From the IMG/VR virus record IMGVR_UViG_3300017967_004030, positions 1 through 64,000 of that record: a stretch of DNA of 64,000 nt; one strand, given 5' to 3'. Position numbers and translations under genes: made by a program. Each line of letters begins with the position of its first letter. The first letter of the stretch is position 1. Positions 2,965 to 60,534 of the stretch are shown here, piece after piece. The DNA is from a virus. The notes under the pieces are model-generated. The model did not search any database and was not told the origin of the DNA. It was given only the letters and a program-made list of their open reading frames with translations.

Positions 2965-3011
2965 AGAAAACTCCTTATAGTCATACTTATCTGCGTACAT
3001 TACTCAACCCT

Positions 3012-31059: not shown

Positions 31060-31067
31060 TATTTATT
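31060..31067 (-). promoter_or_regulatory. Late promoter motif AATAAATA overlapping a stop codon
   Basis: GAATAAATAC on the minus strand contains the TAA stop (31063-31065) of the giant gene and lies 18 bases before the ATG at 31041. It could restart late transcription for the fibre genes after a 16-kb gene. Confidence 0.55.
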
Positions 31068-34000: not shown

Positions 34001-37000
34001 CTAACTTTTCCGTTGCCTAAGACTGCAACTGCTTTGGCTTGAATACTATTTTCCTGTTGAGACCCTTCTATAGTTACCGTAGGAAGACTAGTGTAGCCAT
34101 TGCCGGGATCTGTAACTATAATTTTAGTTATTTTACCATATCCTAAAACTGCCTTTGCTTTGGCTCCTGAGCCGCCGCCGCCACTGATATTTACAACTGG
34201 TGTCCAAGTATAACCTGTACCAGGCTCTGCTACATTTATTTCTTTAATTTGATAACCTAAATTATCTCTCCAATGTTTTCTTGGATATTGAGCAGTGTTA
34301 GATTCGTCACCTATTATTATATCTTGGGTGATACTAGCGTTGCTTGACGAAATTCTTCCAATTTCATCGTTAAAATAAGGTGCATTGTCAAAGTCAGTTG
34401 TTACACTATTAGTGTTATCTAAATTTTCGTAATTATCAACAAATTCTCTTATGTTTGTGCTATAAGGTTTTACTTCTTTCACATAAGATTCGTAATCTTC
34501 TAAATTACTATACTTAAATGTAGGGCTTTGTTCTAATGTACCTAATTTATGTTTAGCTGATATAAAGCTAGTTTTAAACATCCAATCTACACGAGCCTGC
34601 TCAGATAAAATATATCTCAAACTTGCAAAAAATAATTGATTATATTCTATTTCAAGATTTGTGGTAAAAATGTAATCTCTAATAGTATCAAATATAATGC
34701 GTAATTCTTTAACCGGATTAGTATCATAGAATGAACTATCAAAACTTGTATTATCATAACCAATAGAATTCTTTATAAAATCATAAAGACTAGATTTAAA
34801 TTCTATAGTTCCGTTTTGTCTGCCAACTGTTGAATAGTTAATTGTATAATCTTCAGTTTGTTCATTGGAAACTTTTTGTAATAGTAGCCAACCTCCGGAA
34901 CCTACATTGTTTATTTTAACAATATCTCCTATTGAATCATTTATACTAGGTAATTCATAAGAGTTGTCAACACTGTATTTTACATTTGTAAACTGATTGT
35001 AACCTTCGTCATACCAATCTATATAATCCCAATACACGCTAACATCATAGGACTGTATAGCAGTTCTAGTCCATTTGTTTAAAGTATTATTCCAATCATA
35101 AATTGTCCACTTATTAAATGCTGTATTGTCAGAATTAATTAATACACTAAATTTACGAGTGTTTATGATTGTATTTTCTTTATATCCCGAACCTTGTGCA
35201 GTTACAGTTACATCTGTAATTTGTCCTAAATTATTAATAGTAATGTCAAAAGCTGCTCCAGATCCTTCGCCTTCAATATCATAGCTAGGAGGAACTTTAT
35301 AGCCTCTTCCAGGATTTGTGATTATTATCCTTAATATTTTTCCATTTACTACTACAGGTGTAAGCACTGCAGGTGTAAGTTTGTTGGTACTTACAAATGC
35401 TAATTCTTCATATGTATCAATCTCTACATCAAATCTATTACTAATAGTTGTAGGTTTAATTTCATTTTCAAATAATCTAGATAAATTCTTTTCATCTACA
35501 ATAAGATTTTTTGAACACACATAATTAATTCTTTCTATAGTTTGTTTTAAAGCTTCTACTCTATTGACAAACATACCCTGTCTTGGTCTATTTTGTATAC
35601 CAATTCTTTTTGCTACAGGAATAGTTATATCAGGAACACGTCTTAGTTGAGTATCTACTCCGATAAGACTGTCTATCCATTTGCGTTCTATATCTGAATT
35701 CGGTTTGCTAGTAGGCAACTTATCAGAAATAATTTGATATTGTTTATGCTCGTTTTGAGATTTTCCAGTTTCTTTTTTATATCTAATATTGAGAACCAAA
35801 TCATCTGAGGTTATTAGTTTATCAAAATTATTTAAGATTAACTTATTATTTCCAATTAAACTTAAAAATCTATAGCCCGATTGTCTAGGTCTTGCAATCA
35901 AACCTACCATAGTTAATAGATTTATATTTCTATTTTCTACCCTTGGAACTGTTTGTTTGTTTTCTACCCAGAAATAATATTTGGTGCTGAAAGTTTTACT
36001 TACTTCGTTGTATGATAATTTGGCACTATACTTAGCGTCTCCGTAGATAGCTGTACCACTGATACCTAGTTTTATGCCATTGTCAGTATCTGCAAGCTGA
36101 TTCCATTGACTAGGTAGATAGTCACTTTCTACCCACTCATAAATATCTATTGTTGATCCTGGAAGTAATCTATTCCATTCATTTTTCTGGAATGTTGTAG
36201 TTCCTTGATATGCATAACTAAATCTTGCATTAGTAATATTCCACCAAACCTGTCCTACATTTTTGTCAGTCCAAGCTACTTTAGGATCAACATCACTATC
36301 TGCTAATGGTCCAACATTATATCTAGCTGGGTCTAAATTAAGTTTATATGTAATTTCTTGATCAACTGTTCCTGCAATTTTACCTTGAATAGGATCAATA
36401 TAGTCTATGTAAGAAATAATTTCGTTTGTTCTTTTATTATATAGGAATGCTCCATCAATTTTATCTATATCAACTGGAACTTGGCTACTTCTTTTATTAG
36501 TCCAAGCAAGTTTATTTTTTGGCTTACGATAGTCAATTACATAACCTCTTTCGTCACCTAAAGGATTTATAGCGTTAGGTACACCCACATAAATGTGATT
36601 ATTTTTAGCTTTTAAATTTTTTCCAAATTCAAATTGTACCGACGGATATATAAGTTGTTCTGAATATATAAACCCATTACCTAATTTTTCAAATATGTAT
36701 ACTGTGCCTCTGTCTACTTTTTTGTTGGCAAAGGTTGTATAACCGATATCAAATGTTGTTGGCGTTCTAGCATCTGTATCAGAATCTAAAATATAACTAT
36801 CATCAGAAATTGTATTAACAAATGTATCAAATCTAGTTGGAATATTCATATCTCCGTTTAAACTTGATATAACTAAATTATCTTTGCCAAAACTGATAGT
36901 AGAACCAAATTTTTCAACTTCTTCGTTATTTGGCGATCTTAGCACAAACGTTGGATTAGTCACATCATTATTAACAATTCCATAATAACTATTATCGTAA

Positions 37001-40000
37001 TCAAAATTATAAATCCAAACTTCGCCTTGTTCTTCTTTCTCAGTATCAATATATGGGACACTTACTGCTAATGCTGAACCATCTGGAGACAAACTAATAC
37101 TATCAGCCCATTTATTAGAATCAATATATACTTCCGGAGTAGCATTTGGATTAGGAACTCTAGTACCTACGACATCTTGATTTGTTGTATAATGCAATCC
37201 TGCAGGATTAGTGTCTTGATATACTGCTGGTATGTTACTATTATTAGCGTCTTTCAGCCATCTATCATTATCATTATCTTGTAATGTTTGTCCTGATGCC
37301 GGTGCTTTAATTATTTGTTTTAACGTATATTTTTTGTTTTCTAAATTATAAACAACAAGAGAAACTTCATAACTACTATCAGATAAAACTTGTCTAGATT
37401 TAACTATTAATGTTTCTCCATCTTCACTAACCTCAAAGCTATCTGCAAACTGCTCAATATTTTCATCTGGATCAAAAACTTGCTCTGCAAGATAGTTAAA
37501 CCCAGATAAATTTGGTAGATAACCTAAATAATCTATTGTTGCAATTTGCTGCTGCCAAGAACTGTTAAGTGAATTTGGTGATACAGCTCCAGCACTAATA
37601 TTAGTAAGTGCCTTCCAGAATAATCCATCTTGTAATACTATATTTCCTTCTGCATAAGAATATAGATTGTTAAAGGCGCCTCTGTAGTTAGAATCTTTAC
37701 TACGTCTCCAAGATATTTTATTCCAAAATATCGAATTATTAATTTCATTACTAGAAGATGATATTGTTTTTCTTGCAGCAAAATAGTCATCTTTATAAAG
37801 AACTACATCGCCAGTTAGGTATTCAACTCCGAGAAGATAATCTCCTTTAAAAGTTTGATCTTCAAATACACCGTGATTATAAATTTCTATAGCACCAGGA
37901 TTTTTCCTCCATTCGTATGGATCATTTCTTGCATCTCCTGTAGGTTCATTAGAAATTAATAGTTTATATAAATTATTCTTTTTCGTTATCTTAACATTAG
38001 AACCAAACTGTTTATCTTTTCCAGCATATTCAGACGTTAACACTATTTGTAGTTGATATAATCCTGAAACATCTCTTCTATAAATTGTCACGGCTCCTTG
38101 GTTTTCAAAACCGCCAGTACCAGTTCTGTCTGCAGGAATATTATAAATTTGAGTGTAGTCTTTATTCAAAGAGTACGGTGCATTTTGCTCTCTATCAATA
38201 CCAGTTAATGTATCTTCATTATAAAAATAATATTCTTGATCAACTATCGGAATAATATCATCCCAATTATCTACTGCTGGAAATGTTGAATCTGCTTCGA
38301 TAACTAAAAGTTTTCCAATAAGTGATGTTCCTAATGCTATATCATCATTAATATCTAAAATAGTACCAATAACTTGATCAGGATCTCCAGCACCACGTAA
38401 GGTTGGATTAGATAAACGTTTGACTTGGAATCTTCCAATATTTGTTAACTGTGACCAATTGCCTGAAGCAATATCTGTACGTAATTTAACGTAAACTCTT
38501 ATTCTATTAAAGTTTCTTTGATAATAAACAACTTCAGCTGCACTTGTAGTTGAACTTGTTACAGCTAAACCACCTTGGCCATCTCTAGGTGTTTGTACAT
38601 CGACTAGAATATCTCCAATTTCTGGTTCAAAAACATTACCTTGGAAGTCAAATTCAGTAAAATCAAATTCAATAAACCCGTCCCACATATCATTAATGCT
38701 ATGAGTTTTTGTTAAGTCAGATACTTGTAAGCCAGTAGAGCTTATATCATAATCTGGATTATCATAATATTTCATTTCTATAGAAAGATTATTAGGTCCT
38801 TCTGATAAAAATCTAGGATACAGTAAATCAGAATATGTTTTAGACAATCTTACTACAAACTTATTACTAGGATACGGACTATTTACTCCTCCATTATCAC
38901 CATTAAAAGATAAGTGGGTAATAAAACTAGCTTGATTTTTTCTATTAAGGTATGGTCCAATTGTTCCTACAGTATCTTGAATATTACTATAAGCATTAAT
39001 AGGATGATTTTCCTGTATTTCGGAAATACGTCTCACATCAGAATAAACCAATCCTCTACCTACATCATAGTATCTACTGTTATTACTATATGTAAATGTA
39101 TCTCCAGAAAAATTAGGAACTACGTGAGTTGGTACAGGGTCTTGGCCGATATCATATGTTTTAAACAACCAGTAACCGCCTACAGAGTCAGTAGTAGAAT
39201 AAGTATTTTCTTCTGTATAAAAGCCTACAAAATCTTTATTATCAGTAAACATTTCGCCAGTAATTGGAAAGACACCATTTGCATCAGTAATATAAATTAC
39301 TGCACTATCACCTAGAGTAGCTCTATAATAGACTATTCCTGAACCTGTGTCAGTTTCTATTCTATCACCAACATTAGGAAGTGTTACAAATGTTTCTAAA
39401 AAGAAAATGTTATCAATCTTTTGTTGTATAATGTGTTCTTGCGAAATATAAGCAGCACTTAGTTCTGAAATTTCTTCATCAAAAGGAAAATATCTATCTA
39501 ATGTTGGAAATGCATAACTTCTCGAATTCCAAGATAATGATACTCCGTCACCTACTTGGGTTCCATTATACATATCAGCAGGAGCTCTAACTAAGAAATG
39601 ATCTACAACACTATTTTCTAAACCAGGATTTCCTGCAACTAAAAGTGTAAGTGTAGTGCTATCTGCATCCTGTTGTTCAGTAATGTTAATGTAAGAGTCA
39701 AATGTAGTAAACGGTTGATCTTCGATTTTAGGTAATATTTCTCTATTTGCTTTCCATAAACTTTCTCTATATCTAACTATATCGCCCTTTATGTATGTGC
39801 GAGTTGAATCAAATTCTCCTAAAAATCTAGTAGGAACATAGCTTGCGTTTGGAGATCCTACTGCTAAAAATTCGCCGTCTGCAGAAACATCAATTGATTT
39901 TCCGAATTGACTATTATATGGATCAAAATACGCAAATGCATTTGTAATTTGTTCCCAATAAGTACTTGCTTCTGTGTCACTAAAAAATGTGCCACTAGTA

Positions 40001-43000
40001 TGATTGTCAATTGCTTTCCAATACGTGCGTGTACTGTCAACATCGTATACAATAACGTTATTTCTTAAATAATCTTTATTCGGTTCCCATACATCGATTG
40101 TATCTGGAGGTAAAATTGTTTGATCAATGACAAAACCTTGAACATCATTAGATCTTCTATAATAGTCAACTTTTCCATTTGCATCAGAATAAGATGATAT
40201 AAACAAATTCTTATTATCACTACTTACTGCAATGCTATCAGAAAATCCTTGCATTTCATTTAAAAAACTATTTGTGTTAATAATTGTTTGATTTGCCTCA
40301 TAAACACTATTATTTTCTATTACTTTCCAATCGTTGTTTTCAAAATTTTCAACCCAAAAACGTTGTCCTTGATAAACTTTTTGTTGTGCTAATGTATTTG
40401 CTGCTTCAATATCTTTTACTCTTACATTGCGTAGTATAGTTACTAAGAAATTTTCATTTGTAAAACTTGAAGGTTGATTGTCAGAAGAAGTTTTAATTGT
40501 AATTTTATCAAGATTTGTATTATCAACAATATAAAGTCCATTTAAGTCATATTCTTGAGCTCCTTTAACTCCTATAATATCACCTACTTTTATTATGTCT
40601 CCGGGCCATCTATCAATTTTTATTTGCCAAAGTTGATTTCCGTCTGTATCGGTAGTTTCTAAATCAGTAAAATCTATTGCTTTTGCACCTGATTCTATAT
40701 GTTGATAAACTGCCCAAGGATTTTCTCCTTGTTCAACTACCCAAATATAGGAACCTAAAATAAGCTGATTTACATCTCCTGTAGGCAATTCCGCATTATT
40801 TCCTGCTACAAATGCAACATCTTCCTCGTTAACAAAACCACCCGATTTTATAATCTCCGTATCTAGTATTTTTGTAGGGAACGGCTTGTGATCATAATCA
40901 GCTGGCTTATCATACATTTGAAATGGTAAAATTCTATAATGACGATCATAGTTTGTGTCTGGTAGAGACGTTACTAATTCTATAGCCTGAGGAGAATCAA
41001 CAATTTTTTCTTCTTCAAAATTAATTTCTATTTGATTTTTATTATCAACGTTTCCGTATCTACCTACTTGAATTGCCCATTCTTCGTAAAATTCTAATGT
41101 GTCTTGGCCCGAATTACCTAAAGAAGAAAATAATTTATCTAGTGCATTCTTTGTGCCTTTATCTTGGATAAATCCTTGATAGAATTTATATTGGCTTACA
41201 TCATCTTGAATTATATTTGCAAGATATTGTCTTTTTTGGAATCCAGTAAGATGCTTAGCCATTTTTTGTAATTCACTATCAAATCCTGTTGTATCTAAAT
41301 TATAAAAATCACTAAACTGATCAATTCTGTAGTCAAAATTTGTAATTAGTTCTGATTCTGGTTTTTTGCTTAATCTATACCAATCATTAGAATTAAATTT
41401 GTTAGTTCCAGGAATATTATTTGTAGCTACATAATAAAACTGTCTATATTTTACTATACTACCTATAGCGTAATCTTTCCAATTTGTCCAATCTGTAACT
41501 TTAGCATCATCATACACAAATCCTGGAATATTTAGGCCTCCGTTCCAATCAGCTGCACGATATCCTGTGACTTTGATTCTTTCTTGTCTGTAACCTGTTG
41601 AAGGTTCGAACACCACATCATTGAACACAGTTTTGTTATCAATTACAACTACGTGTTCTTTATGCACAAGAGGTAATGCAGCACTATACAATCCTTCGGT
41701 AGTGTCAATGGTTTCTATACCAAAACTATTTTTGTTTCTGAGTAAACTTGTAAATTCTGTAGATAATGGCTCACCGTTAGCTTGCAAAATACTATAAGGA
41801 TAAAATGCATCATTTATATTATCAACTACAAAATAATCTTGTTTAAAGTTAAAACTATTAGCAGCAGGTGATAATGTAATAACTGTTCCACTTGCCCATC
41901 CTTGTGTGGTCCAGAATAAAAATTCTTTACAAATTTGATCCCAGTTGTTAACTAATCCTTCGCCTTCTACATAATTAAACTCAAAACCTATATCTTGTAG
42001 TCTTTCACCATAGCCAAGAAGGAAATCTACTACATCTTGCGAGGTTGAAAGTGTTGTACCGTATTGTAAGCTTAGAACTTCAGTTTTATCAAAATTACGT
42101 TTAAAACCAGCAGTTTTGCCGCCAACAGTTGGCAGTTCAGGTAACTTGACAAAATTTTGTAAACTAAAACTTTCACCTGACGTATGATCTTTTAAAGCTC
42201 TATAAAAATTATTATTATATTCTACTACTGTATCTTTTACATAAAACTTTGCAGATTGCCAGTCTGTAGAAGATTCGGATATACCACCAACTGTTACATT
42301 TACTGATTTACTACCTATTCTTGGAGTATAATATTCAAAAAATGGATTCTCGTTATTATATCCTCTAATAGTAAATCCGTTAGCTCTTTTTTCTACAACA
42401 ACTCCACTATAGGTTGCAATTTTTTGAGGAGAACTAGTATTGAAAATAATTTTATAATTTTCTTGAGGAATATATATTCCTCCTTCCTCTAATTGTTGTT
42501 GTGGACTACGGCTATCTAAAACTAAATTTAATTTTGAAGTATCACTAAAACTACCTAATTTAAAGCCTAATTGGTTTTGTATTGACTTTACTTCATTTTG
42601 ATAATCTTCGTAGATTGTGAGTATATCATTTGCTACTAGATTATATATAAAGTTGATAAAACCAGCAGCCAAAACTCTTTGATTGTCAGCATATGTATTA
42701 GGAAATACAATACTGTCTGTTCTAATATGCTTATTGTTATTATATACATACTGTCCTGCAAGATTTTTTGAAATTCTTGATACATCAAACCCTTTACTTA
42801 ATGTATCCGAAGGTTTATTCAACAACATACTAGATATAACAGCAAATGGATAATCAGAACTTCTTCTCCACGCAGTTTCAACTGGGGCCTCGTCGCCAAA
42901 ATTGAAATTGTTTGTGCTTTGTCTAAGTACAAAACCTTTTACATAACCGCTTTGTTGTGGCGGCTTTAATTTACCTTTTGAATCAACCGGAATGTGTGAA

Positions 43001-46000
43001 AGTATTCCAGGTCGGCTATATTGAGTTGTATATCTTGTATTTTCAGGATCAGCAATTTTTCCTGCTTCTATATCTCTCCATAAAATTAAATTATCACTTG
43101 TGTATGGGGCAGGACCGTATACTGTATCCCACCATTTTGGTTTACGTTTTATTCCTAGTATTTCCCAAGGCTGCGAATGTGGTTTATCTGTGCCAAACGC
43201 TCTTTTGTAGATTCCTCTCCAAAAACCAGGTAAAAGATTTCCGTTAGGATCTAATGCAGTTGAATAGTTAAATGTGAAAGAGTTATTGCGATCATAAAAA
43301 TAATTATCTGAATAATCAGCGTCAACTAATGTGAGCCATCTTTTAAAGTATTGCAGTAATGAACTATTAATTTCTGCTCTAGAAAAAACGTTATTAGATT
43401 TATCATCACCTAAAAACTTATCAACATCTAATCCTGTATTTTCATAGTTTACTTTTATATTATTAAAGATTCTTTTTTCTAATTCTAAAAGTAATTCATC
43501 TCTATAATCTAAGTATGCTCTAACATAACTTCCGTCGTGACCTCTAATAAATGGAATACCGGTTGGATAAGAATCTATTTCAACATTATCTTCGCCGCCG
43601 TGAACTCCTCCAGTATTTGGCATATAAAGAGTAACATTTAAACCTTTAAATTGGTGTTTGTGTATTTCTCCTGTGCCACCATTTTCAATGTCTGCTGATT
43701 TAGCTGCTTGTTGTGTAGTAAACAAAGGATAGAACCATCCTCGCATTTTAGCGTTTTGGAATCCTTCAGAAACTTCGCCATAAACTTTATATTTTTTATC
43801 GTCTAACGCATTTTCTGTTTGGTAAGTGTCATCTAAAAGAAGTTCAGGATAGTATTTTGGATACAATCCTAATTTTGTCGGCGTAGGAGCAATGTAAGAA
43901 CCGTCAGTAGTTTCAAACTCGTATATTTCAATAATATCATCTTCAGTTTGTCCTGCTTCAATTATTACATAACCGTCATTACTGAAACTGTAATCTAATT
44001 CTGCTGTAAGTTGAACTCCGTTCAAATATACATTAATAGCTTTTGCTGATAATTCGTCAAGGCTAAATGCGTTGCTTAGAGCATATTGACTTATTCTAGA
44101 ATCTAATACTTTATATGCTAGTCTATTGTAAGGACCATAACCTAGCATATCTGAAAAGTAAAACGGTTGAGACTTTACTTTATCTTTATTAATTTCTTGT
44201 AGAATTTTATCGACGTGCTGCTTTGTTTCTCCGTCATAACCTAAAGATTCAGATGTTTGTAAAAAAATTCTTTTAAATCTATTGTATTCAGTATTCGAAT
44301 ACCTGATAGCTTTTACTAAATTATAATTTTTATTTGTAATGTGATAAAGAGATAAGTTTAACGGACTAGAATGTTTAACAAATCTTTTTCCGTATTTGCT
44401 TACATTTCCTATATCTCTAATATTTCCTACTCCGGGAAACGTACCAATAAAATTAGGAATTTCCGGCACCATACTATCTACGTGATCAATTACTTCACCT
44501 AGAGTAAATTCACCTATGTCATCGTTCATAGGATTTCTATCTAAATTTATAGGAACTTCATAATATCCTAAATTATTTTTTATAGCACTACTATAGGCTT
44601 TAATAATTATTGAATCATTAATAGATAGATCTGTATTAAATCTAATTAATGCTTCTTTGTTGATACGGTTAATTACATAGTCTGTATTTTTAATTTTTAA
44701 CTTATTATTAACGTATACAATTACTTTTAAATCATTTAAGTCACCGGCATCTTTAAAAACTCTGACAGGAAAATCGTTTGTTTTTTCTAAACTAACGACC
44801 CTTTGATCTATTACATACTGCTTGCTATATTGTGGTGTATTAGACCAGCCATTTACATAATTAAACGTAGTTCTATCTTTATATTTTCTTAAAAACGCAG
44901 TATCTGTGTTAACAGTTACAATTTGATCATTGTTTTGTACTGTAAACTTGTCAGTTTGTAAATTAAAATCAAATAATATATCACCAGAATTTTCTATAGA
45001 TCGATACGATAAAGCAAATCCTAATTCTGAATCGATAAATCCATCTTCGTTTTCTTTGTAAGAAAATATTTTTGTACCTTTAAAAGTAGATGAATTAAAT
45101 ACATCCAAATCTCCGTAAGGATTGCCTTGTGGACAACATAAATCAAACATAGGAGGTTGGTTTACTTTATTTTTTTCTTGTGCTACTTTCCAAACGCTGT
45201 TTTCATAAAAATACGTTTTACCACTATTTTTGGTTCCATTTTTAACAAATACAGTTTCTAAATCTAAAGGTTGGCTATCTTCAGCTTCTACTAAAGATAT
45301 TTGTCTTTGATTGTTAATTGTTAGAAATTTTACAATAAAAATTTTACCGTTAACTAATAAATCTGTATCAGCAGTAAAAAGTATTCTCATTCCTTCTGCT
45401 AGATTTACACCATCTATATTATATCCTAGCTGACCTTCGATTGTAGAGAAAACGTCAGTTGTAAATGTATCAACTAAGTCAACGTCTGATTTAGCAAAAA
45501 CTCCGTAATTATAAAGTTTCAATCCGGCTTCAAATTCTAAAATTGGCCTGCGAGCCCTAAAATCTTCATTTAGATTGATAGGAATATTATTAAATTTATA
45601 ACTTTGTTCTATTACATCTCTATGAAACCATTTATTATATCTAGACCAAGCATTTTTATCTTTACTTGCTCTGTTTATGATAATATAATCTTTATCTGTG
45701 GCATATGCACTTGCGTTTGAAAAAGGCAATGCATCAAACTGGTCGGAATCAAAAGGTATAAGAATATCTTGCGTATATCCGGAGGGTATTATAACATCCT
45801 TTTCGTTAATTAAAGTTATCTTGTCTCCTACACCTTCAACATACCATTGATCTTGTTCATATATTTTTGGTGTAATATTTCCTTGGAATCTAATTTTCAT
45901 TCCATTAGAAAGAGTTACGCCGTTAGAACTTGTATAAGTTTTTTTACCTAATATTTCATTTTGTACATCTAGTGAAGTATTTTCTTCTATATCGTAAATT

Positions 46001-46998
46001 CTAAAAACACCACTTGTGTCAATATCATTTTGTGAAATATAATATAATCTATCTGGGGCATTAAACGGAATAGTAAATTCTATTGTTCCGTTAGAAATAT
46101 ATACAACTGCAACTTCTTCGCCGTCTTCTCCTAGTTTTCTAATACCATCAGGATAAAGAGTAGAAACATTATCTCCTTCAGTAAATGTAACATTTCCACT
46201 TTCAGGTAATACAATAAATTCTCCTACATCATAACTTAAATTATTTGCGTCATATAGATTTGCATCAAACAATCCAGAATCTCTAATACCTTCTGTACCA
46301 GCAGTAAGTATTGCTGTGCCAGGAGTAAATGTTCTGCTTATAGCTATAGCCATAGGATGATCAGGTGTATTAATTTCAAATCTGTAAGTCTGACCTCTAT
46401 ACAATTTTATAGACGGGTTACGTACAAATCCGTCATTAAATACGTAAGCAACATTATCACCCTGATCTTCTGTTGTAACCGTATATGTACTAACAATATC
46501 TTGACTTTGTCCTCTTACAGGAATAGATAATGGTCCGTTAGGCATCCAATAGTATTCACGGAAATTTGCAAATTTATCCCAATCTATGCCTGGATTCCAA
46601 GTGTAATATTCAGAACTGTTTAATCTACTATGATTTTTTGTATTTCCGCCAAAGTAATTCAATGTACCAAGATAATCGTTATAATCTTTATAGAAAGTAA
46701 TGTTTTCTAGATTATCTTTTATAATAGTTGCAGGTTCTAATTGATAAGCTTCTCTTTCTGGAGTGATATCACCTAAATAATTGTCAGAATATTTGTAAGA
46801 TTTAGCAGTTTTTCTTCCTACATAATCATTAATTTTTTCAGCAACACCGGGTTGGATAAGCTGATCTATTGTTCCTTGTAAAAATTTTCTATTTGCTTCA
46901 GAGCGGAAAAATTTAGGTAAAAAGTCACTTGCTGTTCGATTTTTATTTGTATCGTCTGGCAATGAACTTTCGTTATTGTAGTTATCATTATAGGACAT
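31063..46998 (-). CDS. Giant baseplate protein in gp7 position
   Basis: The 5311-residue protein fills a quarter of the window. It follows gp6 with a TAATG stop/start overlap, the place of gp7 in T4, whose product has about 1030 residues. The gp7 name rests on position, not on recognised similarity. Modules visible: at least six carbohydrate-binding-like units (about 1578, 1834, 2302, 2393, 3048, 3103) of the form W-x4-Y-x2-G-x-[IV]-V-x-Y-x3-[FLY]-[YW]-x-A. There are six FG-GAP-like blades (about 2250, 2362, 3183, 3297, 3360, 3454; example FGKSIDVSADGEFLAVGSPN). PGxGY repeats occur near 3887-3937 and 4250-4317. Fibre-like repeats with F-x-GDG-x-T-x-x-F occur from about 4300 to the end. It is probably a wedge arm fused to sugar-binding surfaces. 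No internal frameshift is seen. Confidence 0.75.
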   Translation of the reverse strand: MSYNDNYNNESSLPDDTNKNRTASDFLPKFFRSEANRKFLQGTIDQLIQPGVAEKINDYVGRKTAKSYKYSDNYLGDITPEREAYQLEPATIIKDNLENITFYKDYNDYLGTLNYFGGNTKNHSRLNSSEYYTWNPGIDWDKFANFREYYWMPNGPLSIPVRGQSQDIVSTYTVTTEDQGDNVAYVFNDGFVRNPSIKLYRGQTYRFEINTPDHPMAIAISRTFTPGTAILTAGTEGIRDSGLFDANLYDANNLSYDVGEFIVLPESGNVTFTEGDNVSTLYPDGIRKLGEDGEEVAVVYISNGTIEFTIPFNAPDRLYYISQNDIDTSGVFRIYDIEENTSLDVQNEILGKKTYTSSNGVTLSNGMKIRFQGNITPKIYEQDQWYVEGVGDKITLINEKDVIIPSGYTQDILIPFDSDQFDALPFSNASAYATDKDYIIINRASKDKNAWSRYNKWFHRDVIEQSYKFNNIPINLNEDFRARRPILEFEAGLKLYNYGVFAKSDVDLVDTFTTDVFSTIEGQLGYNIDGVNLAEGMRILFTADTDLLVNGKIFIVKFLTINNQRQISLVEAEDSQPLDLETVFVKNGTKNSGKTYFYENSVWKVAQEKNKVNQPPMFDLCCPQGNPYGDLDVFNSSTFKGTKIFSYKENEDGFIDSELGFALSYRSIENSGDILFDFNLQTDKFTVQNNDQIVTVNTDTAFLRKYKDRTTFNYVNGWSNTPQYSKQYVIDQRVVSLEKTNDFPVRVFKDAGDLNDLKVIVYVNNKLKIKNTDYVINRINKEALIRFNTDLSINDSIIIKAYSSAIKNNLGYYEVPINLDRNPMNDDIGEFTLGEVIDHVDSMVPEIPNFIGTFPGVGNIRDIGNVSKYGKRFVKHSSPLNLSLYHITNKNYNLVKAIRYSNTEYNRFKRIFLQTSESLGYDGETKQHVDKILQEINKDKVKSQPFYFSDMLGYGPYNRLAYKVLDSRISQYALSNAFSLDELSAKAINVYLNGVQLTAELDYSFSNDGYVIIEAGQTEDDIIEIYEFETTDGSYIAPTPTKLGLYPKYYPELLLDDTYQTENALDDKKYKVYGEVSEGFQNAKMRGWFYPLFTTQQAAKSADIENGGTGEIHKHQFKGLNVTLYMPNTGGVHGGEDNVEIDSYPTGIPFIRGHDGSYVRAYLDYRDELLLELEKRIFNNIKVNYENTGLDVDKFLGDDKSNNVFSRAEINSSLLQYFKRWLTLVDADYSDNYFYDRNNSFTFNYSTALDPNGNLLPGFWRGIYKRAFGTDKPHSQPWEILGIKRKPKWWDTVYGPAPYTSDNLILWRDIEAGKIADPENTRYTTQYSRPGILSHIPVDSKGKLKPPQQSGYVKGFVLRQSTNNFNFGDEAPVETAWRRSSDYPFAVISSMLLNKPSDTLSKGFDVSRISKNLAGQYVYNNNKHIRTDSIVFPNTYADNQRVLAAGFINFIYNLVANDILTIYEDYQNEVKSIQNQLGFKLGSFSDTSKLNLVLDSRSPQQQLEEGGIYIPQENYKIIFNTSSPQKIATYSGVVVEKRANGFTIRGYNNENPFFEYYTPRIGSKSVNVTVGGISESSTDWQSAKFYVKDTVVEYNNNFYRALKDHTSGESFSLQNFVKLPELPTVGGKTAGFKRNFDKTEVLSLQYGTTLSTSQDVVDFLLGYGERLQDIGFEFNYVEGEGLVNNWDQICKEFLFWTTQGWASGTVITLSPAANSFNFKQDYFVVDNINDAFYPYSILQANGEPLSTEFTSLLRNKNSFGIETIDTTEGLYSAALPLVHKEHVVVIDNKTVFNDVVFEPSTGYRQERIKVTGYRAADWNGGLNIPGFVYDDAKVTDWTNWKDYAIGSIVKYRQFYYVATNNIPGTNKFNSNDWYRLSKKPESELITNFDYRIDQFSDFYNLDTTGFDSELQKMAKHLTGFQKRQYLANIIQDDVSQYKFYQGFIQDKGTKNALDKLFSSLGNSGQDTLEFYEEWAIQVGRYGNVDNKNQIEINFEEEKIVDSPQAIELVTSLPDTNYDRHYRILPFQMYDKPADYDHKPFPTKILDTEIIKSGGFVNEEDVAFVAGNNAELPTGDVNQLILGSYIWVVEQGENPWAVYQHIESGAKAIDFTDLETTDTDGNQLWQIKIDRWPGDIIKVGDIIGVKGAQEYDLNGLYIVDNTNLDKITIKTSSDNQPSSFTNENFLVTILRNVRVKDIEAANTLAQQKVYQGQRFWVENFENNDWKVIENNSVYEANQTIINTNSFLNEMQGFSDSIAVSSDNKNLFISSYSDANGKVDYYRRSNDVQGFVIDQTILPPDTIDVWEPNKDYLRNNVIVYDVDSTRTYWKAIDNHTSGTFFSDTEASTYWEQITNAFAYFDPYNSQFGKSIDVSADGEFLAVGSPNASYVPTRFLGEFDSTRTYIKGDIVRYRESLWKANREILPKIEDQPFTTFDSYINITEQQDADSTTLTLLVAGNPGLENSVVDHFLVRAPADMYNGTQVGDGVSLSWNSRSYAFPTLDRYFPFDEEISELSAAYISQEHIIQQKIDNIFFLETFVTLPNVGDRIETDTGSGIVYYRATLGDSAVIYITDANGVFPITGEMFTDNKDFVGFYTEENTYSTTDSVGGYWLFKTYDIGQDPVPTHVVPNFSGDTFTYSNNSRYYDVGRGLVYSDVRRISEIQENHPINAYSNIQDTVGTIGPYLNRKNQASFITHLSFNGDNGGVNSPYPSNKFVVRLSKTYSDLLYPRFLSEGPNNLSIEMKYYDNPDYDISSTGLQVSDLTKTHSINDMWDGFIEFDFTEFDFQGNVFEPEIGDILVDVQTPRDGQGGLAVTSSTTSAAEVVYYQRNFNRIRVYVKLRTDIASGNWSQLTNIGRFQVKRLSNPTLRGAGDPDQVIGTILDINDDIALGTSLIGKLLVIEADSTFPAVDNWDDIIPIVDQEYYFYNEDTLTGIDREQNAPYSLNKDYTQIYNIPADRTGTGGFENQGAVTIYRRDVSGLYQLQIVLTSEYAGKDKQFGSNVKITKKNNLYKLLISNEPTGDARNDPYEWRKNPGAIEIYNHGVFEDQTFKGDYLLGVEYLTGDVVLYKDDYFAARKTISSSSNEINNSIFWNKISWRRSKDSNYRGAFNNLYSYAEGNIVLQDGLFWKALTNISAGAVSPNSLNSSWQQQIATIDYLGYLPNLSGFNYLAEQVFDPDENIEQFADSFEVSEDGETLIVKSRQVLSDSSYEVSLVVYNLENKKYTLKQIIKAPASGQTLQDNDNDRWLKDANNSNIPAVYQDTNPAGLHYTTNQDVVGTRVPNPNATPEVYIDSNKWADSISLSPDGSALAVSVPYIDTEKEEQGEVWIYNFDYDNSYYGIVNNDVTNPTFVLRSPNNEEVEKFGSTISFGKDNLVISSLNGDMNIPTRFDTFVNTISDDSYILDSDTDARTPTTFDIGYTTFANKKVDRGTVYIFEKLGNGFIYSEQLIYPSVQFEFGKNLKAKNNHIYVGVPNAINPLGDERGYVIDYRKPKNKLAWTNKRSSQVPVDIDKIDGAFLYNKRTNEIISYIDYIDPIQGKIAGTVDQEITYKLNLDPARYNVGPLADSDVDPKVAWTDKNVGQVWWNITNARFSYAYQGTTTFQKNEWNRLLPGSTIDIYEWVESDYLPSQWNQLADTDNGIKLGISGTAIYGDAKYSAKLSYNEVSKTFSTKYYFWVENKQTVPRVENRNINLLTMVGLIARPRQSGYRFLSLIGNNKLILNNFDKLITSDDLVLNIRYKKETGKSQNEHKQYQIISDKLPTSKPNSDIERKWIDSLIGVDTQLRRVPDITIPVAKRIGIQNRPRQGMFVNRVEALKQTIERINYVCSKNLIVDEKNLSRLFENEIKPTTISNRFDVEIDTYEELAFVSTNKLTPAVLTPVVVNGKILRIIITNPGRGYKVPPSYDIEGEGSGAAFDITINNLGQITDVTVTAQGSGYKENTIINTRKFSVLINSDNTAFNKWTIYDWNNTLNKWTRTAIQSYDVSVYWDYIDWYDEGYNQFTNVKYSVDNSYELPSINDSIGDIVKINNVGSGGWLLLQKVSNEQTEDYTINYSTVGRQNGTIEFKSSLYDFIKNSIGYDNTSFDSSFYDTNPVKELRIIFDTIRDYIFTTNLEIEYNQLFFASLRYILSEQARVDWMFKTSFISAKHKLGTLEQSPTFKYSNLEDYESYVKEVKPYSTNIREFVDNYENLDNTNSVTTDFDNAPYFNDEIGRISSSNASITQDIIIGDESNTAQYPRKHWRDNLGYQIKEINVAEPGTGYTWTPVVNISGGGGSGAKAKAVLGYGKITKIIVTDPGNGYTSLPTVTIEGSQQENSIQAKAVAVLGNGKVRSPHIRVKFDRLSGTYTYDTIQKTASFTGTNINTVFTLPFPMDLENTKVKVYINKVEQLRSKYTYENVVDNSKGFAVEKGRINFTTPPATDDLIYIEYQIPLSMLGAEDRILHSYNPLSDMYGKDLSQLMTGIDYGGVEVRSYEFAGVSGWDSKGWYTDYWDEFDDTFEDEIFVADQSTVAVQLSSPLESGVEYNVYRRKYSSVLPNPNPFVRIDDPNFGTITPVTNKDAEMQTLTGDGVTDIIDLAELSVELLDGDTLIVRKTTSDGSVLPDTNSYDTQLSGGDLSYNNATGINAEDIITDGDGFISEAAMAGPEELVPGQIYDTLDLKVFTREGSGQGKIFVQNYRVNEDISEYDLGVTPGTIDSVFVKVNNFILRRGIDYSINWNSNTVILNSIFTELPNYVNGASLSIVSIAQAGQSILDFYNYKGDGQTRDFETNVRLQENISVYASINGVKQDVTFGEDSTDSNLIISFDNAPNLNDAVYIALFAGDSVVNYSQLKKDQFTGDGLTTDFQLSSAPFYSKPSQYNLIVKVGNLILTPGYNIQYTIPENRQREFALEVFQQPSGSLLTSDIVVYINGERITVESLQWRFDIANSSVVLADDVGQPGDVLEIFVITDGDYTLSAEDTVRIYNPPADSTTIEIYQFSNHDILEIERINYDVVSRITMAPGTTNYIDYNRLSVGEISLRKPAIDGKYVWVIQNGTLLTNDVDYYINDNKDKVILSQYPSEDDVLDIIHFTAETSVSKFAFRQFKDILNRTHFKRLDAPATVLTEPLTYYDLRIEVQDGSLLSEPNKGQNLPGILFINGERIEYFVKEGNTLRQLRRGTLGTGIKEIHEVNSKVYDQNISKTIPYRDETIVQTFIGDGQTQTFKLNTPTASVNEIEVFVGGKRLDKNDITKYLPVFEQTSPEGDFNLPSDIQLDTVSQNIYLKTPPLEGVKITVIRRKGKIWNEGTKTLGESENSIGRFLRAGTSELPE

Positions 46999-49900
46999 TA
47001 GTAACTAGTTCCTCCGCTATTATTACTAGTAGTGTTTGTTGTACTTGTTAAACCGCCGGAATTTGTTGTAGTGCTAGAACTACTAGAACTTGCTATGTCA
47101 GTTGTTGTGCTTGTAGAAACACTTGTTACAACTTTTCCGCTTGCTTTTATTTCCGTTGCTGTTATTTCATCAATAATTTCTATGTCAGAAACCTTTGCAG
47201 CACTTATAAAAATTTCGTCAAATTCTGATTTTATTTCAAATAAACTACCAAAACTTTGATCAGCTTTTTTAGGTACAATTATAATACTTTGTAGTTTTGG
47301 ACTAAGAGTATTCATAATGTAAGCACTAAGCTCTTGGAAATAAAATGTTTCGCCGAAATCCCAATTTTCTAATTCAAAGAAAGTGTCAATAGCAGAAATA
47401 ATATCGGCCTTTAGTTCATTTTCGTTTACAACTAAGTCTTTATTTCTAACAATTTTGAAATTTACTTGCAAGTCTTCTTTCGCCTTACTTCCAAACAATA
47501 CTTTATACTTAACTGGATGATAGACAACTTCGTCGCTTATTGATTTTATTGCATTTATTTCTGATCCGTATGATCTTGTTAAAATATCGTTGCTAGGTGG
47601 TAAGGGCATTAATGATAATGCTCCGCTGATATACTTCCTTACATCTATATCATAATTTTTTGTAAGGATATATGTATCAATAATATTACTTGCACTTGGA
47701 TCAATTCTATAAGAACTATCAGCAACGTGAATATAATGGAATTTTAAGTTTGATCGTCCAACATATGCTTTATAATCTGTATTAATTGTTAAATTACTAG
47801 CTGTTTTATCAAGTTGTTTGAAAACTTTTTCTTCTACAAGGTAAAAAACTTGTCTATCTTTATGAGTAGAATATGATCCAATTGCATTCTCATTTGTAAC
47901 TATTTTTATTTCGCTAGAGGTATTATTAAAAAATTTAAAATCTTCTACGCCATCAGTAGTAGTGTATTTTTTTTGAAAAACTGTTTTATTAGCTACAGTA
48001 ATATCACTATTATTTTCGTCTACTATTTCATAAAAAAGATCAAGATTATCAACTGCTCCGTCATCATCTAAGTCAAAAAACTGAATTTGTATTTTTCTTG
48101 AATCTACATAACCTTCTTTGTCTCTATATGCATCGCTAATACTCCAAACATAATCTTGGCTATAAGAAGATGTTCCGCCTGCTTGTTTGTTAATACTTAA
48201 AACTTTGATTTGGTCTCTTACAATTTTTCCTGTTTTAGGATCATATATTTTATCAGCATTATCAAAGAAAAATCTAATCTCATTTTCACTTTCAAAAATG
48301 TATCTTTGATTTCTATTTTTTACAGTATACTTTTCTCCATCAGTTTTAAAATATAATAACCAGCTCGAATCTAAATTTTCTCCAGTAGCGTCACCGGCTT
48401 TACCTAAAGCAAAATTATTAATAGTATTGATATTTTCATTTAATACTATTTTCCAATCTCTTTCTTCAATATCATATCTTAATGCAAAATCTTTGTAAGC
48501 AAATGCTTGATCAATAATTTGTACTTTAGTATCATTATTAAGTATCTTACTAAATTTTGCAACTATTTCTACTAATATACTATCTTCATTTATTACGTCT
48601 GTTAATACAATGTCTCCAATGTTATTAAGCACTCCGTCGCCTTCATTTGCAACTGAAAAGACTTTAGTCCATCTAATCATAGAAGCACCAAATTCTTCTG
48701 CATTTGTAGTTAATGAGCCATTAGGTAAAAAATATTGTTGCGTACCATTTAGCTTAGGTGCTTGGAATTTTAACATTGATCCTGCTTCTACAAATCTTAA
48801 ATTATTTGATGTAAAAGTTCCTGTTTTAAACTTCGACTGGCTATCGGCACCGGAAGACAACGTGCCTGTATTTTGGTCTGTTGCTTGATAGCTATTTTTC
48901 CAAACAGCATTTAGATCTAATGTAGATATTCTAGGATACTCGCTGTAATAAAAATTACGTAAATTTGTAGATTGTATAATACCTTCTATAGTATTATAAA
49001 TTACTCCCTCAATATCACTTTGTGTTACAAATGTAAATGTAGATGTTGAATCAAAAAACTCTTTATAAATTACACCATCGTCTGCAAATAAACTTGTATT
49101 TGAATATTTTCCGCTTGCGTCTATTAAATCAAAATATCTACTGATACCACTTGATATTCTGTTCACTGATTTTGTCTTAATGATATCTTGACTTATAGCT
49201 AAAGGTCCTATGTTATAATCTTCAGCCGTTATAAGTCTGTTTTGTGTATAATAAGTTGCAGGTGCATTTTGTTTTATACTTGTATTTGTTTCTGTAGTTG
49301 TACTATTAGATACTGTATAATTTAATCTAAATCCTAAAGTTAGTGTTTCAAGATTTCCGTTTCTACCTTGATAAGGGATTTCGATATTTACATTGCCTAT
49401 GCTTGCAGGTGTTACTACCATATTTGTGTTTGCACTTGTTCTATAAAACACTTTAAAGTTACCTGAAGGTAAGTTTCCAAATACTCCGTCACTGAATACT
49501 AAGTTTACTCTATCGCCTATTCTAGTTGTGACTGCAAATACATTTCTTATACCTTCAAACAAGCTGTTGTATATAACATTATTACCTTCTACACTAGATA
49601 ATTTTGTCCAAGAAGTTGTTTCAAAGCCATTTGAATCTGTATTGTATAACCATATATCATCATTGTTAATATTTTCTGCATCTATAGCAATAATTTGATT
49701 AGGAATAGGATTTGAAATTGAAAAATTACCAGTATCTAATTTGCCCTGACGGAAATGCATAAAGAATCCTGTGTTCACACTTGCAGCGCCTTGTCCATCA
49801 TCTCTAAATAAAAATGCAGGACTAGTTCCTGGAACAGGCGGCTCTTCTATTATAACATCACCTTGTATATCAGTGCTAACTATTTCAAAAACAGTGCTAA

Positions 49901-50522
49901 TACCTTCTATATTTTTTGAAAATGGAAATATTGCACTTGTAGTATTTGTAGCATTGAATCTGTATTTTTGTGTTTGTACACCATCGATGTTTTCGCTTTT
50001 TAATGGACTACCTATTGAATTAGTAACAGGCAATGCAGCATTAAGAATCTTAATAAACTGTTCAAAATAATTTGTATTTGTTTGGTCATTCCACTTGATT
50101 ACTCTTCCAGCTAATTGAGCACCTGTACTGTCAGTAAGATTTTCCGAAGTTTTTACTGTGGCTAATTTCAACAATCCTCTAGAAGGTTGATTTCTACGGG
50201 GATTGTAAGAAAGCATACGTGCAAGTCGTAGTATGCTTTCTCTGCGTTCTGCTGTTTCAAGGAAGTTTTCTCTAGCGTTTAAGTCAATACGGAACGATAA
50301 GTTTTGCCCAAGGAATGCAATCATATCAATTAGTGCAAGATATTCACTAGATTCAATATAATCGTTAAAATCTTCTGGATAATTTTGACGTAGATAATTA
50401 ATCATTGTTCTACGTAAATTATCAAAATCATAGCTTTGAAAATCAGCATTTCTAAAACTTTGATATATTTTTTTCCAATCTTCTGCTACAAGTAGTCTGG
50501 ATTGTCTTTCGCTTGACGACAT
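46998..50522 (-). CDS. 6: Baseplate wedge protein gp6
   Basis: The 1174-residue protein opens with the typical gp6 N-terminus: NADFQSYDFDNLRRTMINYL, YPEDFNDYIESSEYLALIDM, FLGQNLSFRIDLNARENFLE and RESILRLARMLSYNPRRNQP. In T4, gp6 dimers join neighbouring wedges into the inner baseplate ring and the protein has 660 residues. The marine version here is nearly twice as long, with extra beta-rich segments in the middle. The C-terminus ends in a serine/threonine-rich tail of about 40 residues, probably disordered. AAGGA precedes the ATG, a late-promoter motif lies upstream, and it follows gp25 as in T4-like genomes. Confidence 0.9.
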   Translation of the reverse strand: MSSSERQSRLLVAEDWKKIYQSFRNADFQSYDFDNLRRTMINYLRQNYPEDFNDYIESSEYLALIDMIAFLGQNLSFRIDLNARENFLETAERRESILRLARMLSYNPRRNQPSRGLLKLATVKTSENLTDSTGAQLAGRVIKWNDQTNTNYFEQFIKILNAALPVTNSIGSPLKSENIDGVQTQKYRFNATNTTSAIFPFSKNIEGISTVFEIVSTDIQGDVIIEEPPVPGTSPAFLFRDDGQGAASVNTGFFMHFRQGKLDTGNFSISNPIPNQIIAIDAENINNDDIWLYNTDSNGFETTSWTKLSSVEGNNVIYNSLFEGIRNVFAVTTRIGDRVNLVFSDGVFGNLPSGNFKVFYRTSANTNMVVTPASIGNVNIEIPYQGRNGNLETLTLGFRLNYTVSNSTTTETNTSIKQNAPATYYTQNRLITAEDYNIGPLAISQDIIKTKSVNRISSGISRYFDLIDASGKYSNTSLFADDGVIYKEFFDSTSTFTFVTQSDIEGVIYNTIEGIIQSTNLRNFYYSEYPRISTLDLNAVWKNSYQATDQNTGTLSSGADSQSKFKTGTFTSNNLRFVEAGSMLKFQAPKLNGTQQYFLPNGSLTTNAEEFGASMIRWTKVFSVANEGDGVLNNIGDIVLTDVINEDSILVEIVAKFSKILNNDTKVQIIDQAFAYKDFALRYDIEERDWKIVLNENINTINNFALGKAGDATGENLDSSWLLYFKTDGEKYTVKNRNQRYIFESENEIRFFFDNADKIYDPKTGKIVRDQIKVLSINKQAGGTSSYSQDYVWSISDAYRDKEGYVDSRKIQIQFFDLDDDGAVDNLDLFYEIVDENNSDITVANKTVFQKKYTTTDGVEDFKFFNNTSSEIKIVTNENAIGSYSTHKDRQVFYLVEEKVFKQLDKTASNLTINTDYKAYVGRSNLKFHYIHVADSSYRIDPSASNIIDTYILTKNYDIDVRKYISGALSLMPLPPSNDILTRSYGSEINAIKSISDEVVYHPVKYKVLFGSKAKEDLQVNFKIVRNKDLVVNENELKADIISAIDTFFELENWDFGETFYFQELSAYIMNTLSPKLQSIIIVPKKADQSFGSLFEIKSEFDEIFISAAKVSDIEIIDEITATEIKASGKVVTSVSTSTTTDIASSSSSSTTTNSGGLTSTTNTTSNNSGGTSY

Positions 50523-58318: not shown

Positions 58319-58618
58319 TTATATGCCTAACTGTGATTGCAAATTACTACCTTGCGGCAAATAAATTTCTGTTCCTGAAACAAAATCAAATACAGGATCT
58401 TTTAATACGTCTGGATTCCTTTGTGCAAAAACCCACCATAATTCTTTTTTGCCGTATAAATCATTTGCTAACAAATCTGGTCTATAATTATACGCAGGCA
58501 AAATTGTATATAACACATCGTCGCCTGCAACAGGAATTGGTCTAGGAACAAAAATGTCAAGATATCCGTTTGAGTTTATTTTTGTTTTACCATAAGGTCC
58601 AAAATTATTTCCAGCCAT
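58319..58618 (-). CDS. 53: Baseplate wedge protein gp53 (short form)
   Basis: The 99-residue protein has the gp53 core: YNYRPDLLANDLYGKKELWW, followed by VFAQRNPDVLKDPVFDFVSG and the LysM-like end TEIYLP. In T4 gp53 has 196 residues and joins adjacent baseplate wedges. Only the conserved core is present here, a size often seen in marine T4-like phages. It sits between gp48 and the hub-like gene, overlapping gp48 by one base. Confidence 0.85.
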   Translation of the reverse strand: MAGNNFGPYGKTKINSNGYLDIFVPRPIPVAGDDVLYTILPAYNYRPDLLANDLYGKKELWWVFAQRNPDVLKDPVFDFVSGTEIYLPQGSNLQSQLGI

Positions 58619-59580
58619 TATACAAATCCTTGATCTTGACCTACAAATGTACCATTAGCATAATCAACAAGACTAAATCTAGCCTGTGATCTTCTTGCGT
58701 ATTGTGGCGTAGCTGTTATCGTTACTGTTGCTTGAGCAGGAACGTAGTTTGTTTCGTTACCTACAACTGTTTGTATATAATCTACATCAGCTGGAAAATC
58801 TGTTGTAAAGTTTGTTATAAGGACAGGAATATTATTTAAAACGTGTTTACCATATCCATTTAATCTACAAACAGGAGGTGGTTGTCCTACTAAGTCTCCT
58901 TCTCCGCCATAAAACATTTTTGTAACAGTCCTTAAAAAATGAAGCGTAGCAATAAAGTATTGCGCATCTGCTGTTGTTTCATTTAAAAATTCTCCAGCAA
59001 TAGTATAATTGTCTACTTGACTATTTTCATATGCATTATAAGGAAAATTAGAGTGTGTTGGCGTAATTTGACTGTAATTCGCACTATGTCCTATTAACAC
59101 TGTTGGGTTAAATGGAAATATCATTCTGTTTCCAGTTCCTGCTAATGGAGCAAGTATTGGCGAGGATGCAAAAATACCAGGAACACTTATACTCACTCTC
59201 CAGTCAGTTTCGTCAGCCGACGAAACATTAGCAGACAATATTGCTCTTGTAAGTTCTCTTGATCTAGGAGCAGCATTATAACCAACTCCTTGCGAAGCAT
59301 TACCAATCATACGTATAGCAGCACCAATATTCGAAAGGCTGTTTCCGCGATTTATTAAATTATCTACAGCACCTACTGTATTCCTTAAATTTCCTGCAAT
59401 ACTTGTTACTTGGTTTAATGTATTAACTAAACCACCCGATGTACTAAAGTTACGTATTCCACTAGCAGCTCGATTAAAACTACTAGAAACGTTGTTAATT
59501 GTTCTCGATACTGAATTTATATTGCTAAACGCATTATTGACACTAGTAGCAAGATTGTTAAATGCACTAAACAGTCCCAT
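58618..59580 (-). CDS. 48: Baseplate tail tube cap protein gp48
   Basis: The 320-residue protein has an Asn/Ser-rich helical N-terminus (about 1-100) and a conserved core: MIFPFNPTVLIGHSANYSQI, FPYNAYENSQVDNYTIAGEF and DAQYFIATLHFLRTVTKMFY. These match the tube-cap group represented by T4 gp48 and gp54, on which the tail tube polymerises. It could serve as both gp48 and gp54, since no separate second copy is seen nearby. It is the first gene of the leftward baseplate block, with GGAGA 10 bases before the ATG and a CTAAATA element at 59601-59607. Confidence 0.8.
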   Translation of the reverse strand: MGLFSAFNNLATSVNNAFSNINSVSRTINNVSSSFNRAASGIRNFSTSGGLVNTLNQVTSIAGNLRNTVGAVDNLINRGNSLSNIGAAIRMIGNASQGVGYNAAPRSRELTRAILSANVSSADETDWRVSISVPGIFASSPILAPLAGTGNRMIFPFNPTVLIGHSANYSQITPTHSNFPYNAYENSQVDNYTIAGEFLNETTADAQYFIATLHFLRTVTKMFYGGEGDLVGQPPPVCRLNGYGKHVLNNIPVLITNFTTDFPADVDYIQTVVGNETNYVPAQATVTITATPQYARRSQARFSLVDYANGTFVGQDQGFV

Positions 59581-59600
59581 AAAATATATTTCTCCATTAG

Positions 59601-59607
59601 TATTTAG
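59601..59607 (-). promoter_or_regulatory. Weak late-promoter-like element CTAAATA
   Basis: CTAAATA on the minus strand lies 21 bases before the gp48 start. It deviates from ATAAATA at one position but is the only candidate for starting the leftward baseplate block. It directly abuts the -35 box of the gp55 promoter on the other strand. Confidence 0.35.
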
Positions 59608-59636
59608 TTGACAAAATTATCTACGTATATTATAAT
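59608..59636 (+). promoter_or_regulatory. Consensus sigma70 promoter (TTGACA-N17-TATAAT) upstream of gp55
   Basis: TTGACA at 59608-59613 and TATAAT at 59631-59636 are both perfect matches with a 17-base spacer. The host RNA polymerase should read gp55 early from here. AATAAATA (59634-59641), a late motif, overlaps the -10 box. Confidence 0.88.
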
Positions 59637-59659
59637 AAATACTATAACTGGAGCAGTAT

Positions 59660-60502
59660 ATGAGACCTAAAAATTACCTCAACAACAAAGACATTTTAAA
59701 AGAAATACACAGATCAAAAAACACATTTAACAGCTACGTAGAAAAAGATTATGCCGACTATGACATCATCTTAGAAAGCGTAGAGAAAGTTAACATAAGA
59801 ACGATTGCAGAAGCAAAAAGAAATAAAGCAAAACGTTTATCTAACGAAGATTACGAAAAAAGAAAAATTAATGGTGAAAAAGTAAAACAAGCAGATTGCG
59901 AAGTTGATTATAAAACCATTACTAAAGAAGAAATAATCTTTCGTATAATGACGTATGATCACATTCCGGAAGAGCCAGGACGTAAAAAGAATCCAAAAAC
60001 TGTAGCTGATACAAAAACTAAACTAAATTTTCCACCTTTCCAGCATTATAAATTTAACGATGACGGTGAACTTGTTTGTGTAGGCAAATCTCACTGGGTT
60101 GGAGGAATGGAGAATGGACATTTTTCTAAGGATCACGGCAAAGCAACTAACAAACTTGCACTTATGTGGATGAAACTATGTGACAGATATGCAACACGAG
60201 GAAATGTGAGAGGATACACTTATAATGACGAAATGCGAGGACAAGCAATATTGCAACTTGCTCAAATTGGTCTACAGTTTGATGAGTCTAAAAGTCAAAA
60301 CCCCTTTGCTTATTACACAGCAGCAGTTACAAACTCATTTGTGCGTGTTATCAACATTGAAAAACGCAATCAAAACATTAGAGACGACATCCTCGAAATG
60401 AACGACTTAACACCGAGTTATACAAGACAACATCAAGGCGAATGGGAAGCTAGTGTAAAACGGAATGAAGATGCTAGTATTTCATCATTTTCAAAAGAAT
60501 AG
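59660..60502 (+). CDS. 55: Late-transcription sigma factor gp55
   Basis: The 280-residue protein resembles the T4-type late sigma factor that directs host RNA polymerase to ATAAATA promoters. The sigma region 2-like core is at about 185-245: TYNDEMRGQAILQLAQIGLQ, FDESKSQNPFAYYTAAVTNS and FVRVINIEKRNQNIRDDILE. T4 gp55 has 185 residues; the basic N-terminal extension of about 90 residues here is of a kind seen in marine relatives. GGAG lies 6 bases before the ATG. The gene has its own consensus early promoter, as expected for a regulator that must act before virion genes. Confidence 0.92.
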   Translation: MRPKNYLNNKDILKEIHRSKNTFNSYVEKDYADYDIILESVEKVNIRTIAEAKRNKAKRLSNEDYEKRKINGEKVKQADCEVDYKTITKEEIIFRIMTYDHIPEEPGRKKNPKTVADTKTKLNFPPFQHYKFNDDGELVCVGKSHWVGGMENGHFSKDHGKATNKLALMWMKLCDRYATRGNVRGYTYNDEMRGQAILQLAQIGLQFDESKSQNPFAYYTAAVTNSFVRVINIEKRNQNIRDDILEMNDLTPSYTRQHQGEWEASVKRNEDASISSFSKE

Positions 60503-60505
60503 CGG

Positions 60506-60534
60506 TTGACAAGTGTATAATTACATAGTATACT
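60506..60534 (+). promoter_or_regulatory. Sigma70-type promoter (TTGACA-N17-TATACT) upstream of gp47
   Basis: TTGACA (60506-60511), a 17-base spacer and TATACT (60529-60534) start 4 bases after the gp55 stop. It is identical in both hexamers and spacing to the promoter at 13065. It would drive gp47, gp46 and the genes after them. Confidence 0.85.

Follow-up and report, generated by a model that had tools for sequence, protein, structure and literature searches.

A candidate late-promoter box overlapping the early promoter of the late sigma factor gene gp55 in one lineage of marine jumbo-type phages

Can the gene for a phage late sigma factor be opened by the host polymerase and later read from a site that its own product recognises? 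The question is raised by 11 bases, TATAATAAATA at 59631-59641 (+), in the 64,000-nt stretch of viral DNA analysed here (the window; positions 1 to 64,000 of IMG/VR record IMGVR_UViG_3300017967_004030, a 64,263-base viral contig). A first-pass annotation had described these bases as a late motif fused to the -10 box of the gp55 promoter, and proposed a positive feedback switch. The two elements are where it put them, TATAAT at 59631-59636 and the late box at 59634-59641, both on the + strand. It had included neither the -35 box nor the divergent late-type partner described below.

The gp55 locus

The gene downstream is gp55, as annotated: the reading frame at 59660-60502 (+) encodes a 280-aa gp55-type late sigma factor, so assigned by homology to curated families (phrog_12791, E 1e-79; phrog_234, E 4.8e-21). 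Its closest counterparts in the phage collection are those of MIJ3 (46.8% identity) and PA5oct (~47%), followed by the Phosso, Atu_ph07, 121Q and RaK2 types. On the other strand a virion structural gene (320 aa, 58618-59580; phrog_12050, E 2.8e-40) points away from gp55, and the divergent operon is mostly structural. The gp55 loci of the RaK2, 121Q, CBB, BF and MIJ3 type likewise have gp55 followed by an SbcD-like gene, with divergent structural genes and a late box facing away, as in the window; unlike the window they have no late box facing gp55, and their -35 box is weaker or different. T4 gene 55, the same gene with a product of the same family, lies instead in a co-directional cluster.

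The early promoter of gp55 has a -35 box TTGACA (59608-59613), a 17-bp spacer (59614-59630) and the -10 box TATAAT, with a start predicted near 59643. It scores 12/12 as a host sigma70-type promoter, and is the only 12/12 site in the window with a spacer of 16-18 bp (0.18 expected). We collected 80 loci from IMG/VR with relatives of this gp55 (78-100% identity), of which 78 have upstream sequence (L013 and L027, lacking it, were dropped; L015 and L062 fall outside the anchor of the promoter alignment). The pattern TTGAC-N18-TATA[AC]T matches 76 of the 78, making the sigma70 core near-invariant in relatives. A second sigma70-type promoter, TTGACA-N17-TATACT at 60506-60534 (+), precedes the SbcD-like gene (60562) and was used as a control. 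At the window and orthologous loci this promoter recurrently begins TTGACA[AG]GTGT, and its spacer varies.

Late promoters of the window family

The late consensus was derived from the window and seven long related contigs, totalling 797,061 bases and 573 predicted genes; the contigs are incomplete genomes. A search of 232 intergenic upstream stretches that assumed no motif ranked ATAAATAC, GATAAATA and TAAATACT highest among 8-mers, and the aligned late consensus was RATAAATACTAT. ATAAATA lies 8-60 nt before a same-strand gene in 76 of 159 occurrences, mostly at 25-34 nt, versus 20 of 517 for ATAAATT. The box is strongly avoided elsewhere: the window has 8 copies of NATAAATA versus 49.7 expected (60 simulations), 6 of AATAAATA versus 17.9, and none of TATAAATA versus 15.2. 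Five of the six AATAAATA copies begin 26-36 nt ahead of a same-strand reading frame, as does GATAAATA at 50556 (-). Among five window genes behind late boxes that were scanned, two have PHROG matches that include virion families (24850-26325, tail fibre and structural; 46998-50522, baseplate wedge), a third matches an uncharacterised family, and the other two have no PHROG match. A single 5311-codon reading frame (31063-46998, -) also lies among the virion genes.

The T4 late promoter, TATAAATA at -13 to -6, is likewise an 8-bp box at the place of the -10 box, followed by A+T-rich DNA. The window family differs in that the box preferably begins with A or G and is followed by C. An A at -13 is also found in T4, at nine of fifty late sites (PMC2988020).

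The fused late box

The late box at gp55 is AATAAATA (59634-59641, +), followed by CTAT; the site as a whole reads AATAAATACTAT, fits RATAAATACTAT and lies 26 nt ahead of the gp55 ATG, with a late start predicted near 59647. It is thus a NATAAATA-type box close before a gene start, like T4-type late promoters and distinct from chance. The -10 box runs into it within the promoter of a single gene, an overlap of the RB49 type, so that the last three bases of TATAAT are reused as three of the eight late-box bases. TATAATAAATA occurs once in the window, and with a shuffle mean of 0.5 the 11-mer alone is not improbable. TTGACA-N16-18-TATAATAAATA also occurs once, and in none of 60 simulated windows. 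The arrangement is therefore present as annotated, non-random, and stronger than first described.

Among 75 late boxes before genes in the window and the seven contigs, an overlapping 12/12 sigma70 promoter was found at three, all of them gp55 (window, L097, L102); the next-best sigma70 scores were 10 and then 9. TATAATAAATA occurs at two other late boxes that do not have a full -35 box (L089, L108), so its TAT may be mere A+T context. Given the perfect -35 box, the fit to the late consensus, the avoidance of late boxes elsewhere and the confinement of the fused 12/12 promoter to gp55, this marine jumbo-type phage probably does have a dual early and late promoter before gp55.

Sigma70-type and gp55-type late promoters before one gene are known from RB49, S-PM2 and Syn9, overlapping in RB49, and the overlap is reportedly thought to give middle expression (PMC2984593); a Kayvirus is described as having combined promoters (p33, p116 and p150; PMC7698491). 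The gp55 promoter might accordingly be a middle promoter of this kind, expressing the gene continuously or at middle times and involving no special feedback. We consider this rather unlikely: unlike in RB49, the fused form is confined to the gp55 gene in the contigs examined and is paired with a divergent late-type box, and since the product is gp55, feedback would be automatic if the late box works. A genome-wide class of RB49-type middle promoters was rejected for the same three-of-75 count, which comes from incomplete genomes. RB49 gene 55 itself has CCTAAATA 24 nt upstream and no ATAAATA. For CBB, the literature describes late promoters of ATAAATA type and, ahead of gp55, a predicted promoter of non-classical type (PMC5259590). 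A literature search, thin on subscription papers, turned up neither a fused late box at a gp55 gene nor a back-to-back arrangement.

Distribution of the fused box among relatives

The fused AATAAATA is present in 13 of the 78 gp55 loci with upstream sequence, always in the same register, and missing in 65. Adding a promoter-pattern scan gave at least 117 distinct promoter cores, 55 of them from that scan only; among the matches listed, the fused box is in 14 of the 117 and missing in 103, and only two of the 55 scan-only cores have it. Treating columns as independent, 3.6 fused boxes would be expected among these listed cores, and 20,000 shuffles never gave as many as 14, a comparison uncorrected for kinship.

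A tree was made from 109 gp55 proteins among the matches listed, eight of the 117 cores being left out for want of a qualifying gp55 reading frame. All 14 rows with the fused box fall within one 47-row part of this tree (SH-aLRT 80 at the fork), with at least eight changes; the remaining 62 rows have no fused late box. Within the 47-row part, six rows carry AATAAGTA, which differs from the fused box by one base, and the four-row clade that contains the window keeps the fused box in all four. It is found in none of nine distant jumbo-type phages (MIJ3, 121Q, RaK2, Vibrio 2.275, BF, Atu_ph07, Phosso, CBB and fENko-Kae01). Nor was N[AC]TAAATA found upstream of gp55 in P-SSM7, S-SSM5 and P-SSM4 (250 nt each) or of T4 gene 55 (400 nt).

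These counts reject the idea that gp55 promoters generally include the late box, and the absence of the box from most relatives and from all nine distant phages indicates that it is dispensable. With full retention in the window's clade, the pattern is that of a lineage-specific addition, and not of a conserved design or core switch. The proposal of dual use stands as far as both elements look functional, with a near-invariant sigma70 core and a consensus late site at the usual distance, and fails as a core switch. The first-pass annotation had named lack of the overlap in close relatives as a ground for refutation, and on this the outcome is split: the overlap holds throughout the window's clade and in only a minority of all loci.

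The same distribution bears on whether the late box works at all. Possibly only the sigma70 and divergent late promoters work, AATAAATA being a neutral A+T-rich extension and gp55 an early gene only; TATAAT supplies three of the eight bases free, and the box is missing in most relatives, in the distant phages, and before T4 gene 55 and the three cyanophage genes. To this we give an appreciable chance, though it sits poorly with an excess over the column expectation among the listed cores, with retention throughout the window's clade and with a match that runs on into CTAT. Moreover, these genomes otherwise avoid ATAAATA, so that a neutral copy would be unlikely to persist. For the window lineage, then, positive feedback of gp55 on its own gene is plausible; as a general design it is not.

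The divergent late-type box

A second late-type box faces the other way. ACTAAATA at 59601-59608 (-) may serve the divergent structural operon as its late box, with a start predicted near 59595. It adjoins the gp55 -35 box and shares one base with TTGACA: read on the + strand as TATTTAGT, its final T also opens the -35 box. TATTTAGT is present in 77 of the 78 loci, L062 being the exception, and each of 12 long contigs has a single copy of TATTTAGTTGAC. The distance from TATTTAGT to the divergent start is 20-39 nt in all 76 measurable loci and 25-34 nt in 68 of them, the spacing of late boxes elsewhere in the window family; an ATG with a Shine-Dalgarno sequence was preferred as the start, and four of the 80 loci gave no start (L013, L022 and L027, which are incomplete, and L062, without the block).

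The idea that TATTTAG is an UP-like component common to the sigma70 promoters of these phages was rejected: TATTTAGTTGA occurs once, at gp55 only, in 77 of the 80 records, being absent from L013 and L027 (incomplete) and L062, and the other sigma70-type promoters of the gp55 loci are without the TATTTAGT block.

All nine distant phages have a NATAAATA- or ACTAAATA-type late box directed at the divergent gene. In seven of them that gene is annotated as structural or is a hypothetical one in the corresponding place; in Phosso and Atu_ph07 it encodes a nucleotidyltransferase. Phage Aeh1 has CTAAATA as its late consensus (PMC1524935 and PMC2988020), and the divergent minus-strand site has the same seven bases. 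Unlike in Aeh1, CTAAATA does not appear to be a general late box in the window family: [CGT]CTAAATA is upstream of genes in 7 of 178 cases, near baseline, and ACTAAATA outside the gp55 site in 3 of 13. These window-family counts weigh against the divergent site as a late box. In Atu_ph07 the count for CTAAATA is 11 of 35, versus 6 of 73 for CTAAATT. The top upstream 8-mers of Atu_ph07 (L327-L346) are ATCGAAAC and its neighbours (19 versus 0.4), akin to the CBB -35 box TGAAACG.

The conserved unit is probably a back-to-back pair, the gp55 sigma70 promoter and the divergent late-type box, to which the fused box would be an add-on in the window lineage.

Proposed regulation

Our reading of gp55 as a gene with a dual promoter, sigma70 acting first and the fused late box later on top of the older back-to-back unit, is one that we hold somewhat probable. 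Host sigma70-RNA polymerase would use TTGACA-N17-TATAAT to make the first gp55; gp55-RNA polymerase would then recognise AATAAATA and start about 4 nt downstream of the sigma70 start, so that gp55 would stay on when sigma70 promoters fade. With the -10 box running into a full late box, the late sigma factor could sustain its own production. The predicted starts (near 59643 for sigma70, near 59647 for late gp55, near 59595 for the late divergent gene) assume T4 spacing, the late ones with a T4-like late box at -13 to -6 (PMC1524935).

The divergent box could also give negative feedback on gp55, abutting the -35 box as it does. Two polymerases do not fit back-to-back about 48 bp apart. The starts near 59643 and 59595 are only that far apart, so both promoters would not be occupied together, and early transcription of gp55 should suffer whenever the divergent late promoter fires. 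In the window lineage the fused box would counteract this and keep gp55 on.

We infer occupancy and both feedbacks, like the start sites, from motifs, spacing, conservation and uniqueness, which are themselves observed. A fuller scheme has the passage from early to late expression in this group of jumbo-type phages set by a conserved bidirectional switch in which gp55 limits itself through the divergent late promoter, perhaps with a regulator on the spacer, while the fused box turns self-limitation into self-maintenance and AATAAGTA stands one mutation from its loss; taken whole, this is speculative and improbable. If true, a late sigma factor would be timed by promoter geometry alone, through a host-driven early start, divergent late competition and self-maintenance in some of the lineages. 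A natural comparison set exists in the relatives, whose common sigma70 promoter is followed by AATAAATA, by AATAAGTA or by neither of them.

The gp55 spacer

The spacer of the gp55 promoter, TTA[AT][CG]T[AG]CGTATAT-like, is unusually conserved by column entropy (mean 0.66 bit, versus 1.54 for 51 further sigma70-type promoters found at these loci) and may be a regulator site. By eye, no covariation was found between its halves in the aligned related gp55 loci. A spacer-like element, TTA[AT][CG]T[AG]CG[TC]A.., occurs 15 times in the 797 kb versus 1-4 in simulations, and the gp55 spacer resembles the copy ahead of another gene, whose product we take, from its sequence, to be baseplate-hub-like (gp26-like). 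The constraint and this resemblance together make a further regulator possible.

TATTTAGT might on these grounds be an activator or repressor site acting with the conserved spacer in a middle-type gp55 promoter, and not a divergent late box. Atu_ph07, which keeps TATTTAGTTGACAAATTAACTAC at gp55 despite a poor -10 box, is consistent with such a site, as is the CBB gene behind its predicted non-classical promoter with -35 TGAAACG (PMC5259590). We find this unlikely, in that the eight distant phages besides Atu_ph07, which do not have the block, all still have a NATAAATA box facing away, and TATTTAGT stands as far from the divergent start as other late boxes do from theirs; the back-to-back pair remains our reading of TATTTAGT. 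The perfect dyad TTAACTACGTAGTTAA was tried as an operator and set aside as only a weak candidate, with four sites (up to two mismatches, 797 kb) versus 0, 0, 0, 1 and 2 in five simulations.

Copies of the spacer-like element lie inside the gp55 spacer and ahead of several late boxes (window 59617-59630 and 2987-3000; L103 2153-2166, -; L107 9697; L098 13195). In three cyanophage gp55 promoters (L323-L325), 30-60 nt before gp55, the sigma70 spacer holds an inverted repeat TTGACA..TGTCAA. About 60 nt before the match start in L234-L258 is the promoter of a gene that is presumably gp26-like; it has a conserved TTAACTACGTATATAAATA and, near the ribosome site on the opposite strand, a TATAAATA box, so that two late boxes face each other.
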